Shown: one piece after another, positions 49,597 to 55,282 of the stretch | Numbering within the stretch: position 1 is the first letter of the stretch | Layout of the letters: every line of letters begins with the position of its first letter | Assembly (NCBI RefSeq): GCF_900115095.1 | Contig: NZ_FOVH01000001.1 | Span: 558,001-622,000, forward strand | Length of the DNA: 64,000 nt | Reading direction: 5' to 3' | DNA from: Actinomadura madurae | Lineage (GTDB): Bacteria; Actinomycetota; Actinomycetes; Streptosporangiales; Streptosporangiaceae | The notes under the pieces: model-generated | Seen by the model: only the letters and a program-made list of their open reading frames with translations | Databases searched by the model: none | What the model was told of the DNA's origin: nothing | Translations under genes and position numbers: made by a program

Positions 49597-51018
49597 CTAA
49601 CGCAGGGGCGGCGGGACCTGGACGTGGTGCATGCGCGACCAGTCCCGGGCCATGGCGATCCGGTCGGGGCCGGAGGGGTGCGTTAGCCACAGCAGGTACT
49701 CCAGGCCGTCCGGGTTCAGGTCGGAGATGTTGCGCACGGACAGCTCGTGCTGCATCGACACGAACGTCGACGGATCGCGCGTGAGGTCGAGGGCGTGCAC
49801 GTCGGCCCGCGCCTCGATGCGGCGGCTCACGAGGTTCTGGACGGGGGCGGCGAGGTGCGTCCCCACCGTCACGAGCGCGAGGAGGAGCGCGATGGACCTC
49901 GGGTCCGCCGCCCCGCCGCGGGAGCCGGACGTGCCTCCCGGCCCGGCGGCCCCGGCTCCGGCCGTGCCGCCGGGATCGAGCCCGGCACGCCGCAGGAGGC
50001 GCGGAGAGGTCATCAGGAGGTACAGGACGCACACCGCCCCGGCGATGCCCAGCGCGCCCACCAGCGTGCCGTGCAGGACGTCGTCGCGCTTGGCGTGGCC
50101 CAGTTCGTGCCCGACGATCGACTCGATCCGCGCGGGCGGCGACTTCAGCAGCGTGTCGTACAGCACGATGCGCCGCGTGGAGCCGAACCCGGACACGTAG
50201 GCGTTCAGCGACGTGGTCCGGCGGGAGGCGTCCGCGACGAGGACGTCCTTCACGGGCACGCCGTCCCGCTCGGCCATCGCCAGCAGGTCGGTGCGCAACC
50301 GCCCTTGCGGCAGCGAGTGGAACTTGTTGAAGACCGGCTCGACGGCGACCGGGTAGATGAACGACACCAGGACGACGAGGAGGAAGCCGCCCGCGGCGGC
50401 GCCCGTCCACCAGTAGCGCGGGAAGCGGCGGATCAGCGCGTACAGCAGCAGCAGGGCGACCGTGTAGATGATCCAGGTGAGGCCGAGGGACTTCAGCTGG
50501 TCCACCAGCCACGAAGGCCAGCTCTGCGTGGACAGCCCGTAGCGGCGCAGCACCGACTCGTGCCAGACGTCGAAGGGGAGCCCCGCGACGCGCAGGAGGG
50601 TGGTGACCGCGGCGGTGGCGATGACGATGCGCAGCGGCCGGCGGCCGGTGCGGGAGGTGGCCCAGCCGATGAAGCGGGCGCCCAGCGGGGTGAGGCCGAG
50701 GACGAGGATCAGCGCGAGGCCGGTGACGAGCCCGGCGTAGGCGGGCGGGGCGAGGGCCGAGTCGAACGCCTTCGAGCGGGCGATCTCGGCGGAGGTGAAG
50801 TCCAGCGCGGGGTCGGCCTTCGCGTGCCCGCCGGGGACGTGCCCCGGCAGCGGGTTCCAGGGCGTCGTCAGCGCGAGGACGGCGGCGACGGCGGCGAACA
50901 GGACGCCGCCGGTGACGGCCGCGGCGATCCGGGGCGGGCGGGAGCCGTCCGGTGCCCCGGTGCCGCCGGCGGCCCGGCTCTCGCGCGCGGCGCCCTCGCC
51001 GGTCTCCGTATCGCTCAC
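49597..51018 (-). CDS. M48 family metallopeptidase (CAAX protease-like)
   Basis: 473-residue membrane protease. N-terminal polar tail, several TM segments, an extracytoplasmic or membrane-face domain VADASRRTTSLNAYVSGFGSTRRIVLYDTLL, and zinc motif VGHELGHAKRDDVLHG (about 302). The third ligand lies in RRIEARADVHALDLT. This is the Ste24-like arrangement, distinct from HtpX. GTG at 51018 overlaps the stop of the next gene upstream (GTGA). Its basic end (DWSRMHHVQVPPPLR) is conserved in relatives. Confidence 0.9.
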   Translation of the reverse strand: MSDTETGEGAARESRAAGGTGAPDGSRPPRIAAAVTGGVLFAAVAAVLALTTPWNPLPGHVPGGHAKADPALDFTSAEIARSKAFDSALAPPAYAGLVTGLALILVLGLTPLGARFIGWATSRTGRRPLRIVIATAAVTTLLRVAGLPFDVWHESVLRRYGLSTQSWPSWLVDQLKSLGLTWIIYTVALLLLYALIRRFPRYWWTGAAAGGFLLVVLVSFIYPVAVEPVFNKFHSLPQGRLRTDLLAMAERDGVPVKDVLVADASRRTTSLNAYVSGFGSTRRIVLYDTLLKSPPARIESIVGHELGHAKRDDVLHGTLVGALGIAGAVCVLYLLMTSPRLLRRAGLDPGGTAGAGAAGPGGTSGSRGGAADPRSIALLLALVTVGTHLAAPVQNLVSRRIEARADVHALDLTRDPSTFVSMQHELSVRNISDLNPDGLEYLLWLTHPSGPDRIAMARDWSRMHHVQVPPPLR

Positions 51019-52337
51019 GTGAGCTCCTTCTTCACGTAGTCGCGCCACATGCCGGTGAAGCGCTCCCGGGTGAGGCCGAGCACGTCCCGCAGCGCGGCGG
51101 CCTCCGAGGCGTGCCCGGCGGCCCGGTAGAGCCGCACGAGCGTCGCCTCACCGTACCGTCCGGCGACCATCCGGCAGGCGAGCCAGGCCTCCTGGTAGGC
51201 CTGGGAGAGGCGCGGGGAGCCGCCGGCGAAGGCGGCGGCCCCGGGCAGGGCGGCGGGCACCCGCCCGGCCGCGACCTCGCGGCGCAGCTCGCCGGCCGCC
51301 GCGCGGACGCCGATCTCGACGTGCCGGTAGCCGACGTAGTCCGCGAAGCCCTCGATGAGCCAGAGCGGCGTCCTGCGGTCGCGGGCGCCGCCGGTGGCGA
51401 CGTGGGTCAGCTCGTGCGTCAGGACGACCGTGCGGCCGAGGTCGTTGAGCCTGCCGAAGGCGGTGGGGGAGACGACGATGCGGTCCTCGCCCCGGCCCCC
51501 GGACGAGGGCGCCGGGGCGACCGTGGCGAGGGCCGCGATCTGGCCGAGGTTCTGCCCGGGGCCGGCGAGCGCGGAGGCCAGGCCCGGGTCGGCGGGGACG
51601 AGCGCGACCACGCGCCGCGCCCAGCCCGCGCCGACGACTCCGGTGACGTCCGGCACGGCGGCGTCCAGCCGGGCCGCGATGCCGCGGAGGCCGGCGGCAT
51701 CGCCGATGACGAGGGCGGCCCGGCCCCGGGCGACGGCGAGCGGGCCCGCGTCCCAGATGTCGGCGTCGTCGGTCAGCCCGCGGGACGTCCCGTCGCCGGC
51801 GATCGTCCACGTCCCGCCGCGCGGGGCCAGCGCGAGGTAGCGGGTGCGGGCCACCTCGCCCCGGTCGAAGCCGCGCAGCCGGTAGCGCACCTCGACGCGG
51901 ACGATGGCGTGCTCCTCGTCCATGGCCCCGGTGTTCATGGCCCCCGTGTTCATGGCCTGGGTGCCGGCGACGCGCTCGCGCCATCCCTCCAGCGGAAGCG
52001 CCCGGAGGTTGTCGTACATGCGCGACTGGGCGTCCCGGAACTCGGCGGGCGCGTCGCCCACGGTGGCGAGGAACGCCATGCGGTCGCCGTCGCGCACGGC
52101 CCGGGCGCGGTTGGCGAGGACGGCGGCGGCCGCGGCCGGGTCGAGCGCCCCGGCCGCGCCGAACGTCCCGGCGGCGGGCGTCCCGGCCCCGGACGGATCG
52201 GCGCGGGGCGTCCCGCCGCCGGACGGCGGGGCGAGCAGGCCGGCGCCCCCGGCGAGCATCACGGCGGCCCCGCTCGCGCCCAGGGCGAGGGCCCTGCGGC
52301 GCGTCACGGGCCCGGTCCGCTCGGCGCGCTCCTCCAC
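51015..52337 (-). CDS. Exported gluzincin-type metallopeptidase-like protein (HELTH)
   Basis: 440 residues. A Tat-like basic start (TRRRALALGASGAAVML) suggests export or anchoring. The middle 100-260 looks like an NTF2-like/binding region with FRDAQSRMYDNLRALPLEGWRERV. The zinc site LTHELTHVATGG (about 307) is followed by the Glu ligand in PLWLIEGFADYVGYR, the MA(E) clan pattern. Two tandem copies of NTGAM (DNA repeat at 51925-51957) interrupt the middle. The stop overlaps the M48 gene start, so both proteases are coupled. Substrate unknown. Confidence 0.82.
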   Translation of the reverse strand: MEERAERTGPVTRRRALALGASGAAVMLAGGAGLLAPPSGGGTPRADPSGAGTPAAGTFGAAGALDPAAAAAVLANRARAVRDGDRMAFLATVGDAPAEFRDAQSRMYDNLRALPLEGWRERVAGTQAMNTGAMNTGAMDEEHAIVRVEVRYRLRGFDRGEVARTRYLALAPRGGTWTIAGDGTSRGLTDDADIWDAGPLAVARGRAALVIGDAAGLRGIAARLDAAVPDVTGVVGAGWARRVVALVPADPGLASALAGPGQNLGQIAALATVAPAPSSGGRGEDRIVVSPTAFGRLNDLGRTVVLTHELTHVATGGARDRRTPLWLIEGFADYVGYRHVEIGVRAAAGELRREVAAGRVPAALPGAAAFAGGSPRLSQAYQEAWLACRMVAGRYGEATLVRLYRAAGHASEAAALRDVLGLTRERFTGMWRDYVKKELT

Positions 52338-52370: not shown

Positions 52371-52398
52371 GTGTCATGAGGACCGTGTCATGAGGACC
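52371..52398. repeat. 14-bp tandem duplication at the CHAP gene stop
   Basis: GTGTCATGAGGACC occurs twice in direct succession (52371-52384, 52385-52398). The second copy contains the TGA of the minus-strand CHAP gene, the first repeats that stop just beyond it. Probably slippage; no function is evident. Confidence 0.6.
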
Positions 52399-53215
52399 GG
52401 TAGCCGGGGTAGCCGTAGCCGACGACGTCGTCGGCCGACCGCTTCTTGATCTGCACGGCGTTGCCGGTGTTGCCCTCGACCGCCTCGATGGCGCCGGCGT
52501 CGATCTTCTTGATCACCATGCCGACGTGCCGGATGTCGGTGACGTCCTTGCCGCCGTCCCAGGCGTAGAAGACGATCGCGCCGGGACGCGGCTCGGTGCC
52601 CCAGCGGCCGTGCTCCTTGAACCAGCGGGCGTGCGCGACCGTCCAGGCGTCGCTGCCGATCTGGTCGCCGAAGCCGATCTGCTCGCCCACCCAGGAGACG
52701 AACATGTCGCACCAGTTCGCGTCGCCGTAGCCGGCGAGGGAGCCGCCGTCGCGCGCGAGCGTCTCCTTCGCGCGCGACGTGCCCATGTACCACTTCTGGA
52801 ACTTGGTCTCGCCGCCGCGGTCCTCCTCGACGCCCACCTGGGAGCGTGCGAGCTCGATGGCCTCGGCGGCGGTCGGCCGCGACGCGCCGGAGGGCTTCGC
52901 GGACGGCTTCCCGGGCGCCTTCGCGGCCGGCTTCTTCGGCACGCTCTTCCCCGGGGCGTTCTTGGCGGCCTTCCTGGCCCCGTCCTTGGACGAGTCCTTC
53001 GACGAGCCGCCGGGGGGCTTCTTGCCCGGGGCGTCCGCCGAGGTGGACGCGGCGGGGGCGGATCCGAACGGCAGGACCGACGCCTGCGCGGTGGCGGCGG
53101 CGGTGCCGAGCACGGCGGCGCCGACGATGAGGCCGCCGGTCGTCCGCCCGGTGAGGGGCAGGGAGCTCACCTTGCGATGCCTGCCCGGGGTCTTCTTGCG
53201 GTGTGCGCCTGGCAC
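52388..53215 (-). CDS. Exported CHAP-domain protein (putative peptidoglycan amidase/endopeptidase)
   Basis: 275 residues. Basic N-terminus and hydrophobic segment (GGLIVGAAVLGTAAATAQASV), then a Lys/Pro/Ala-rich wall-spanning linker (about 60-115), and a C-terminal CHAP domain with Cys in YGDANWCDMFVSWVGEQIG (about 168) and His in TDIRHVGMVIKK. GTG at 53215 is chosen over ATG at 53239: it has a GAGGAG site with 9-base spacing, and the ATG lies inside the conserved 3' end of the riboswitch before it. Expression is probably set by that c-di-AMP-type riboswitch. Confidence 0.87.
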   Translation of the reverse strand: MPGAHRKKTPGRHRKVSSLPLTGRTTGGLIVGAAVLGTAAATAQASVLPFGSAPAASTSADAPGKKPPGGSSKDSSKDGARKAAKNAPGKSVPKKPAAKAPGKPSAKPSGASRPTAAEAIELARSQVGVEEDRGGETKFQKWYMGTSRAKETLARDGGSLAGYGDANWCDMFVSWVGEQIGFGDQIGSDAWTVAHARWFKEHGRWGTEPRPGAIVFYAWDGGKDVTDIRHVGMVIKKIDAGAIEAVEGNTGNAVQIKKRSADDVVGYGYPGYRSS

Positions 53216-53232
53216 GCGGGGGTTCTCCTCGA

Positions 53233-53350
53233 CTTCCATGCCGCCTACCGGGTTAGCTGACGGGTTCGGGCGTGGAAGCCGCCCTACGGCCCGCGGGCAG
53301 GCCGATTCACCCCGATGAGGACGTGATGGGTCCCCGGTTCCGCGTCGGCC
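53233..53350 (-). promoter_or_regulatory. ydaO-type (c-di-AMP) riboswitch, proximal copy
   Basis: On the minus strand the region reads in order GGAACCGGGGACCC, GGGGTGAATCGG, GCCGTAGGGC, CTTCCACGCCCGAACCC, GTCAGCTAACCCGGTAGGCG and GGAAG, the conserved landmarks of the actinobacterial ydaO/yuaA aptamer. It ends 15-18 bases before the GTG of the CHAP gene. ydaO riboswitches shut off wall-hydrolase and osmotic genes at high c-di-AMP. Boundaries approximate. Confidence 0.82.
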
Positions 53351-53481
53351 GCGCATGGGGGCACGGCGGTCCGCGGACTCGGCGGTGGCGCCCCCGGGGG
53401 CGGGCGCGCCGGTTCGGATGGGGGGCCGCGGGCCCGGCGGCGCGCGTCGGCGCGGGTGCCCGCGGAGAGCAGGGGGAAGTG

Positions 53482-53512
53482 GGGCGTGGCCGCACGATGG
53501 GCGGCCACGCCC
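53482..53512 (-). terminator. Terminator between the two riboswitches
   Basis: A 12-bp perfect stem (GGGCGTGGCCGC at 53482-53493 with its complement at 53501-53512), about 25 bases downstream (minus strand) of the distal riboswitch. It could be that riboswitch's own expression platform. Confidence 0.65.
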
Positions 53513-53539
53513 AGGTGATGCTGCGGAACTCACTCCTTC

Positions 53540-53712
53540 GCTTCTTCCAGACGCCTACCGGGTTAGCTGACGGGTTCGGGCGTGGAAGTGGCCCTACGGC
53601 GGGCTCCACCGGAACGGGGCCGGAAGAGACGCACCGATTCACCCCGGGTGCCGGACTCGTCCGGGAGGGTTCCCGGACCCCGCCGGCGTGGGTCCCCGGT
53701 TCCGCGCTGAGG
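53540..53712 (-). promoter_or_regulatory. ydaO-type (c-di-AMP) riboswitch, distal copy without its own gene
   Basis: Same landmark series as the proximal copy, with a 37-base stretch identical at 53552-53588 and 53242-53278 and GGGTCCCCGGTTCCGCG at 53690-53706 (53328-53344 in the other). It has a longer variable arm (53655-53685 forms a strong GGGTTCCCGG/CCGGGAGGG stem). It is followed by a ribosome-site-like AAGGAG (53533-53538) but no start codon at usable distance, then a terminator. Confidence 0.8.
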
Positions 53713-54157
53713 CGGACTCGGCGCTGCCGCTGCGATCCTGGGGGCGATATGGGGCCCGGCGCGGGACCTGTCTCCCGCGTGCGAACGCGCGGCGCCTGTG
53801 TGTTGTGCTGCGGACGGCGGCCCGTCGCCGGGGGCCGTCCGGGGGCCGCCCGCGGACACCGCCGTGGCAGCGCTCTCAGCGCCATGCACGCTGCGGGCGT
53901 GCGCACGGGGGAACGGGAACGGCCGGGTCTCGCGTGGAGACCGCCGCGGCACTCTCGGGTGCCGCCGGACGACGCGTGGAGCGCGCCGTCCTCGGGGGGA
54001 GCGACGCGTGGCTCGCGCCGCCGTCACGCGGCGGCTGGATGCGCCGCGTGGGACCGAAGCGCCTGGTGGGCGCCGCGGGGCCATGGCGCCTGGAGGGCGC
54101 CGTGAGTGGTGACAAGGTACCAAAGCCCCAACAGAAGGCAAACCCCCCCAAAATCAA
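53713..54157. other. Long non-coding stretch upstream of the distal riboswitch
   Basis: About 445 bases with no credible gene: open frames here have Arg/Gly/Pro-rich translations without family resemblance. It contains imperfect direct repeats around CGACGCGTGG-n2-CGCGCCG (near 53970 and 54003) and several GGCGCC-containing hairpins. The promoter for the riboswitch transcript should lie in its part next to 53713. Confidence 0.4.
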
Positions 54158-54186
54158 CAACGGACCAGGTCAAGCCTGGTCCGTTG
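54158..54186 (-). terminator. Rho-independent terminator after the NlpC/P60 gene
   Basis: CAACGGACCAGG-TCAAG-CCTGGTCCGTTG, a 12-bp stem, followed on the minus strand by a T-rich run (TTGATTTTGG). It ends the hydrolase transcript and isolates the riboswitch region from it. Confidence 0.85.
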
Positions 54187-54235
54187 TCGGTGGAGGCTCC
54201 GGTGCGCCGCCGCGGCGGGCCCGGAGGGCGCGGGG

Positions 54236-55282
54236 TCAGGGGCGCCCGGCGCCGTAGTAGTTGCTCAGGTAGTAGCCCGAGGTGATGCTCACGATCTCGA
54301 CGTTCTTGCCGGTGCGGGGAGCGTGGATCATCTTGCCGCCGCCCACGTAGATGCCCACGTGGCCGAGGCTGTTGAAGAACACCAGGTCGCCCTCCTGGAG
54401 GGCGCTCTTGGCGACGCGCTTGGTCGCGGCGTACTGGGAGTTGGTGGTCCGGGTGATGCTGACGCCCGCGGCCCCCCACGCCTTCATGGTCAGGCCGGAG
54501 CAGTCGTAGGAGTTCGGCCCCTCGGCGCCGTAGGAGTAGGGCTTGCCGAGCTGGGCGTAGGCGAAGTTGAGCGCCGTGCGGGCCGAGCCGCTCGCGGGCC
54601 CGGTGTAGGTGCCGCCGATGCCGCCACCGCCGCCGCCCGAGGAGGTTCCGCCGCCGAGCCGCCGCAGCAGCGCCTTCTGCTTCGCGACCTCCTTGTCGAG
54701 CTTCTGCTTCTGCTCCCTCAGCTCCTTGGTCTTCGCCTTCACGTCGTCGTAGGCCGCCTTGGCCTGCGCCTCCTCGCGGCGCAGCCGCTGGGCGGTGGCG
54801 AGGAACTGGGTGAGCTGGGAGCTGCGCTCCTGCGACAGGTGCGAGAAGACGGCCGCCTGGTCGAGGATGGCCTGCGGGTCGTTGCTGCCGACGAAGCCGG
54901 TCACGTCCGCGGAGTCGCCGTTCTTGTAGGCGGCGGCGGCCATCTTGGCGATCGCGGTGCGCTGCTCCTCGAAGGTCGCCTGCTCCTGCTTGCTCGCCTT
55001 GGTCGCGCTCTCGTACTTCTTCTTGGCGATCTTCAGCTTCTCGTTGAGCTGGTTGAACTGCTCGACCTTGTGGTCCATCTGCTCGCCGAGCTTGTCGAGC
55101 TTCTTCTGGACCTGCGCCCGGGTCGGCTTGGGGTCTGCGTGCGCCACCACCGGGGCGTAGGTAAGGGAGGCCGTCACGGTCAGGCAGGCGACGGCCGCCA
55201 GGCGGCGGGAGGTGCCCCGAATCGCCGAGCCGCCCCTCCGGTCACGCCCGCGCGCTGGTACCCCGATGAGATCATTGGCCAC
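54236..55282 (-). CDS. Secreted NlpC/P60 peptidoglycan endopeptidase with coiled coil
   Basis: 348-residue RipA/IipB-like hydrolase. The signal segment is RRLAAVACLTVTASLTYAPVVAHA. Residues 55-215 are two long coiled-coil helices (KLDKLGEQMDHKVEQFNQLNEKLKIAKK; KAKTKELREQKQKLDKEVAKQKALLRRL), a regulatory or FtsEX-type interaction domain. A Gly-rich hinge precedes the NlpC/P60 domain with Cys in NSYDCSGLTMKAW (about 260) and His in LGHVGIYVGGGKMIHAPRTG. It cleaves stem peptides for daughter-cell separation. ATG at 55282. A strong terminator follows. Confidence 0.93.
   Translation of the reverse strand: MANDLIGVPARGRDRRGGSAIRGTSRRLAAVACLTVTASLTYAPVVAHADPKPTRAQVQKKLDKLGEQMDHKVEQFNQLNEKLKIAKKKYESATKASKQEQATFEEQRTAIAKMAAAAYKNGDSADVTGFVGSNDPQAILDQAAVFSHLSQERSSQLTQFLATAQRLRREEAQAKAAYDDVKAKTKELREQKQKLDKEVAKQKALLRRLGGGTSSGGGGGGIGGTYTGPASGSARTALNFAYAQLGKPYSYGAEGPNSYDCSGLTMKAWGAAGVSITRTTNSQYAATKRVAKSALQEGDLVFFNSLGHVGIYVGGGKMIHAPRTGKNVEIVSITSGYYLSNYYGAGRP

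Follow-up and report, generated by a model that had tools for sequence, protein, structure and literature searches.

In the 64-kb window analyzed here (the whole 64,000-nucleotide stretch of Actinomadura madurae DNA), a gene for a CHAP-domain cell-wall hydrolase is preceded by two c-di-AMP riboswitch aptamers, of which the distal one has no gene of its own. This raises the question of how one gene came to have two sensors of the same ligand in series and whether the orphaned copy still acts on it. A preliminary description of the locus had offered two readings as alternatives: either the distal copy is left from a lost hydrolase gene, or both copies act in series. The either/or does not hold, as the evidence supports the two together. 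We consider it probable, from comparison of related sequences, that a gene between the aptamers was lost, that both aptamers now lie in one leader as serial c-di-AMP OFF switches on CHAP, and that the orphan is kept by selection.

We searched the window with all Rfam families (cmscan). RF00379 was the sole family above its gathering score (38 bits), with exactly two matches, both full length over model positions 1 to 134. Both copies are well above this threshold, which bears out the earlier claim of tandem ydaO-type elements on the minus strand before the CHAP hydrolase. The distal element reaches slightly beyond the range first given (53233 to 53712). The Rfam match of the proximal aptamer runs from 53360 to 53226, but its true 5′ end, at P1, is at about 53386; Rfam misplaced this end because of an insertion in P2. 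The P1/P2 start reads ACCGCCGAGTCCGC and is invariant in 18 relatives except for one A/G position, and the almost invariant ACCGCCGAGTCC marks the start of the aptamer near 53386. With both aptamers complete, the gap between them is 150 nt, and no related open reading frame (ORF) was found in it. The run of 37 identical bases in the preliminary description was found at 53588 to 53552 in the distal and 53278 to 53242 in the proximal copy; these shared bases are the conserved core of the riboswitch family. The two aptamers belong to different subtypes, each kept genus-wide, and the genome holds six RF00379 elements, including the window's two.

The CHAP domain scores 35.1 bits against a cutoff of 26, and the gene most likely starts at the GTG at 53215. 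Its ribosome-binding site lies directly at the end of the proximal aptamer. The preceding gene (54236 to 55282) encodes an NlpC/P60 coiled-coil protein (Pfam NLPC_P60, 94 bits). Downstream of CHAP, the gene at 51015 to 52337 (minus strand) encodes a secreted protein with a weak, below-cutoff match to PF04450, a peptidase family.

Table 1. Features of the CHAP hydrolase leader and its surroundings (window coordinates)
Feature	Position	Strand	Evidence
Intrinsic terminator ACAACGGACCAGG..CCTGGTCCGTTGT plus T-run, of the preceding NlpC/P60 coiled-coil gene	54150..54187	-	Sequence
Sole promoter-like site detected for the leader, TTTGCC-N17-TACCTT	54114..54142	-	Consensus match; conserved
Long hairpin-rich 5′ leader, several loops ending in CCA	53830..54110	-	Hairpin counts; conserved blocks
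Distal c-di-AMP riboswitch aptamer, long-insert type, orphaned	53537..53733	-	RF00379, 61.7 bits, E 7e-12
AAGGAG, Shine-Dalgarno site of the lost gene, kept without the gene	53533..53538	-	Precedes the NlpC/P60 start in gene-bearing relatives
Conserved linker CCGCAGCATCACC	53514..53526	-	Alignment A2; CUGUCCAG.. relics elsewhere among gene-less species
Strong hairpin GGGCGTGGCCGCC/GGCGGCCACGCCC without U-tract	53482..53512	-	-27.5 kcal/mol, folded alone; single genome occurrence
Conserved hairpin directly 5′ of the proximal aptamer	53387..53410	-	Alignment A2, RNAalifold
Proximal c-di-AMP riboswitch aptamer	53226..53386	-	RF00379, 66.6 bits, E 3e-13; alignment A3
GAGGAG, CHAP ribosome-binding site, touching the proximal aptamer	53225..53230	-	Sequence; conserved
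CHAP-domain secreted cell-wall hydrolase, 275 aa, GTG start	52388..53215	-	PF05257

We compared the locus across relatives. Strong CHAP orthologues are present in most of 65 congeners; CHAP leaders were taken from 50 of the 65 Actinomadura genomes, and each was searched for Rfam elements (two of the 50 loci are cut by contig ends). Two serial aptamers without a gene between them were found in 33 species. Nine congeners carry, between the aptamers, an intact gene for an NlpC/P60 hydrolase of about 170 aa, whose start lies immediately after the distal aptamer with its AAGGAG. One further congener has the NlpC/P60 gene but lacks the proximal aptamer. Gene-bearing and gene-less species do not differ in the kind of distal aptamer. 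As a rule, the NlpC/P60 stop codon is followed in the nine gene-bearing species by a hairpin resembling that of the window, and none was found between the distal aptamer and the gene. Outside Actinomadura, six genomes from three genera (g17, g48, and g50) also show the order aptamer, NlpC/P60 gene, aptamer, and then CHAP. As a separate observation, the NlpC/P60 frame seems to begin at an unusual CTG (AAGGAG..CTG TCC AGC AAC GCT) in L045, L047, L050, L057, and other gene-bearing loci.

The AAGGAG behind the distal aptamer is conserved in gene-less species and, as previously described, offers no start that could be used: in some relatives, GAG takes the place of the overlapping GTG, and no related ORF follows. 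A small ORF behind this site was considered and ruled out, its start not being conserved. In several gene-less species with longer gaps, the gene start survives as AAGGAG...CUGUCCAG, and the linker of the window is probably a remnant of the lost gene's first codons. The strong hairpin behind the linker corresponds in position to the lost gene's 3′ hairpin; this putative homology is based on position and similar sequence, not on an alignment. There is no close copy of the lost gene elsewhere in the window's genome, where the best match is 48% identical. By eye (alignment A2), we also saw that the orphan GGAGUG (53538 to 53533) could pair with a CACUCC behind the hairpin (53481 to 53410) in several gene-less species and that the pairing would be kept through changes in some, for example, as GGAGAG/CUCUCC in L033.

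To place these arrangements on a species tree, we used AlaS from 54 species; RpoB was left out as a marker, since some of its copies are split or duplicated and the window's genome has an incomplete one. Gene-less species fall in at least four separate places: a clade of 34 species to which the window belongs (support, 96/91), G062 with G015, G003/G035/G039, and G026 beside the gene-bearing G032. Gene-bearing species are scattered around these clades. Given the outgroup gene order and the scattered gene-less places, presence of the gene is ancestral and its loss was repeated. The tree calls for at least four independent losses, one at the base of the window's 34-species clade and at least three others. 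It is possible that the history of G015 involves transfer, as its leader is nearer to the window's clade than its tree position suggests; whatever that history, G062 alone still demands a separate loss. Thus, two aptamers lie in series before CHAP because a gene once between them was lost. The earlier suggestion of a lost hydrolase gene is well supported as history by the gene between the copies in nine congeners and six outgroup genomes and by the start relics. For tandems of the same class, the default explanation would be duplication of an aptamer within the leader, here with later insertion of the NlpC/P60 gene in some species, and the 37 bases common to both copies would fit with this. 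However, these bases belong to the family's core, and the copies are of different subtypes, each conserved across the genus. Nor does duplication fit well with a gene between the aptamers in three other genera, with gene-bearing species scattered around gene-less clades, or with the Shine-Dalgarno site and start relic that gene-less species retain. We regard an origin by duplication as hardly credible.

Having lost its gene, the distal aptamer has not lost its sequence. Its core is invariant over long stretches in 31 gene-less species, and RNAalifold detected compensatory changes at 8 of 43 pairs of the aptamer in gene-less species. Pairwise identity among 17 gene-less species averages 89% in each of the two aptamers, distal and proximal, and 91% in the linker plus hairpin; in CHAP third codon positions, it averages 79%. 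The spacer between the aptamers is only 64% identical, and therefore unconstrained sequence at this locus does change. Judged from the alignments, this conservation shows that the orphan copy is not debris and is kept by selection. Retention of the leftover sensor across dozens of species makes it probable that it still contributes to switching off the enzyme. Another explanation is that the distal copy is a decaying remnant, the hairpin ending a short transcript constitutively and the proximal riboswitch alone controlling CHAP from its own, unrecognized promoter. The hairpin is indeed very stable, with no competing fold favored, and gene-bearing relatives have a hairpin at this position after the NlpC/P60 stop. 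However, a decaying copy does not fit well with a core that is invariant in 31 species and an aptamer conserved as much as the proximal one, and the distal copy has outlived the proximal one in three species. Decay is therefore an unlikely explanation. Faster evolution of the orphan aptamer was also considered and rejected: the slope against AlaS distance is 1.07 to 1.16 for gene-less and 0.82 for gene-bearing species, which gives no clear relaxation, as the gene-bearing pairs are separated by larger distances and most of the additional variable columns are located behind the aptamer.

The position of promoters bears on whether the two aptamers share a transcript. The only promoter-like site found sits just behind the preceding gene's terminator, upstream of the distal aptamer. 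The pattern TTTGCC-N17-TACCTT matches once in the window, against 0.03 matches expected; with as many as three mismatches allowed, it matches once in the genome (pattern search). All 48 relatives with enough upstream sequence have a version of the site, located 300 to 456 nt ahead of the distal aptamer. For the proximal aptamer, 42 loci were examined over the 200 nt upstream of it, or over the entire gap where this is shorter: none has a -35/-10 pair, and even a TANNNT occurs in just one. This sequence search thus gave no separate promoter-like site for the proximal copy, against the separate transcription starts that the preliminary description had considered. The genome's four stand-alone riboswitches each have a candidate promoter within 350 nt, and the lack of one at the proximal copy in 42 loci further argues against a decaying distal copy. 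With one promoter-like site before the distal aptamer and none before the proximal one, both aptamers most likely lie in a single CHAP leader of about 0.9 kb. Two other c-di-AMP riboswitch loci of the genome (L003 and L002) have promoter-like sites in the same style, TTTGCY...TANCTT, which suggests that this promoter type may be common to the c-di-AMP riboswitch regulon. The leader is rich in hairpins, with 4.9 per locus versus 1.3 in shuffled sequence (48 loci). The short hairpins between the promoter-like site and the distal aptamer, in the window and in the corresponding stretch of 48 relatives, include several with CUCCA, CACCA, or CCCCA loops.

In several relatives, the tandem is reduced to one aptamer. 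In three species (G006, G058, and G014), among them A. chibensis and A. syzygii, the distal aptamer stands alone before CHAP, and no match to a second aptamer was found even at E 0.5. In A. darangshiensis and G047, there is a single recombinant aptamer whose 5′ half is distal and whose 3′ half is proximal, joined inside the shared core (L015, 1287 to 1488; L030, 1254 to 1451). Everything between the two aptamers is gone in these species, hairpin included, so the upstream promoter must serve CHAP there. The tandem collapsed independently in the two species, each time through recombination within the core common to both aptamers. Some SAM and B12 riboswitches have been reported to act in trans or to titrate ligand, and the distal aptamer with its hairpin could likewise be a stand-alone c-di-AMP-regulated small RNA that does not act on CHAP. 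In favor of such an RNA, conservation extends over aptamer, linker, and hairpin together and gives way to a variable spacer behind them, and the Shine-Dalgarno site is retained without an ORF. However, a cis-acting leader also predicts conservation up to the hairpin, and the two recombinant species fused the distal and proximal copies in one CHAP leader with loss of the hairpin. We find a stand-alone RNA quite improbable. The proposal that both copies act in series finds indirect support in the single promoter-like site, the conserved orphan, and the distal-only and recombinant species, all of which speak through sequence comparison.

How might the distal aptamer act on CHAP? The hairpin behind it had been called a strong terminator. 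It is a strong hairpin and occurs once in the 10.25-Mb genome, but it has no U-tract, and a terminator scan does not call it. Of the 20 short-gap species, 15 have a perfect 8-base complementarity between CCACGCCC in the distal aptamer and GGGCGTGG in the hairpin arm; in most other gene-less species it falls to 5, and gene-bearing species have runs of 4 to 6. In folding, the hairpin fold (-49.3 kcal/mol) was favored over the antiterminator fold (-39.1 kcal/mol), with or without the upstream aptamer, and the antiterminator probability was 0.00 to 0.60, mostly below 0.2, even before the 3′ arm of the hairpin is made. We therefore rejected this antiterminator, since folding favors the hairpin and five short-gap species break the perfect match, and keep it only as a lead. 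A ligand-controlled terminator would be the simplest upstream step, but as the folding energies favor the hairpin, such a step is only plausible.

The reading that we prefer, gene loss with two serial switches, would work as follows. By comparison with relatives, the ancestral unit would have consisted of promoter, aptamer 1, NlpC/P60 hydrolase gene, hairpin, aptamer 2, and CHAP hydrolase gene. Loss of the first gene by deletion would have left aptamer 1, the Shine-Dalgarno site, and the gene's 3′ hairpin in the CHAP 5′ leader. One promoter upstream of the distal copy, as the conserved sequence suggests, would read both aptamers. From what is known of the family, at high c-di-AMP levels the distal aptamer would lower read-through past the hairpin, and the proximal aptamer, abutting the ribosome-binding site, would block CHAP translation or elongation. 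With two OFF switches in series, the hydrolase would be shut off more deeply and probably more steeply. A broader version is tentative, and we think it possible at best: that repeated loss of the leading gene from an operon with two riboswitches made a transcriptional gate, acting on the following gene, out of a translational riboswitch and the 3′ hairpin of the lost gene. Tandem riboswitches could then arise through deletion of a gene instead of duplication, with convergence in at least four lineages, and the complementarity between aptamer and hairpin arm would have come afterwards.

The usual explanation for same-ligand tandems is the advantage that they give in dose response, and their origins can seldom be seen. 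Here, the relatives show the stages: the intact two-gene unit, partial relics, the clean tandem, loss of either part, and recombination between the aptamers. The gene-loss origin and the retention of the orphan are therefore directly testable, and the species series provides natural deletion variants of a c-di-AMP-controlled cell-wall hydrolase leader.

Related riboswitches are known from other systems. In Bacillus subtilis, ligand binding to the ydaO/kimA riboswitch leads to a terminator (cited in PMC9960051); the aptamer family is the same, but there is a single aptamer, a canonical terminator, and a potassium importer downstream. The ydaO-like riboswitch of Streptomyces rpfA is a c-di-AMP OFF switch of a muralytic enzyme (reviewed in PMC10117811), and premature transcription termination was reported for that of S. 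coelicolor (PMC10117811). Like the window's locus, it is actinobacterial and controls a muralytic enzyme; unlike it, it has a single aptamer, before an Rpf gene. The Corynebacterium glutamicum nlpC gene has a ydaO-type OFF switch before a cell-wall peptidase, with no canonical terminator and a likely effect on translation (PMC9960051). This switch resembles the window's proximal copy, although it is a single aptamer. Tandem c-di-AMP riboswitches are themselves already known, and the window's locus is a further member: a 2022 study from the Breaker laboratory (PMC9481103) reports 77 doublets, most with an intrinsic terminator between the aptamers, and proposes that they are pseudo-cooperative. 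Like those doublets, the window's locus has two RF00379 aptamers in what its sequence suggests is one leader. An origin by loss of an intervening gene is absent from that paper's passages on duplication, deletion, orphans, and evolution. Set against those doublets, the window's locus differs in having a hairpin without a U-tract, a proximal copy without a terminator, and an origin traced to gene loss. Within the literature searched, what appears to be new is the origin of a tandem by repeated loss of an intervening gene, with living intermediates and long retention of the orphan.
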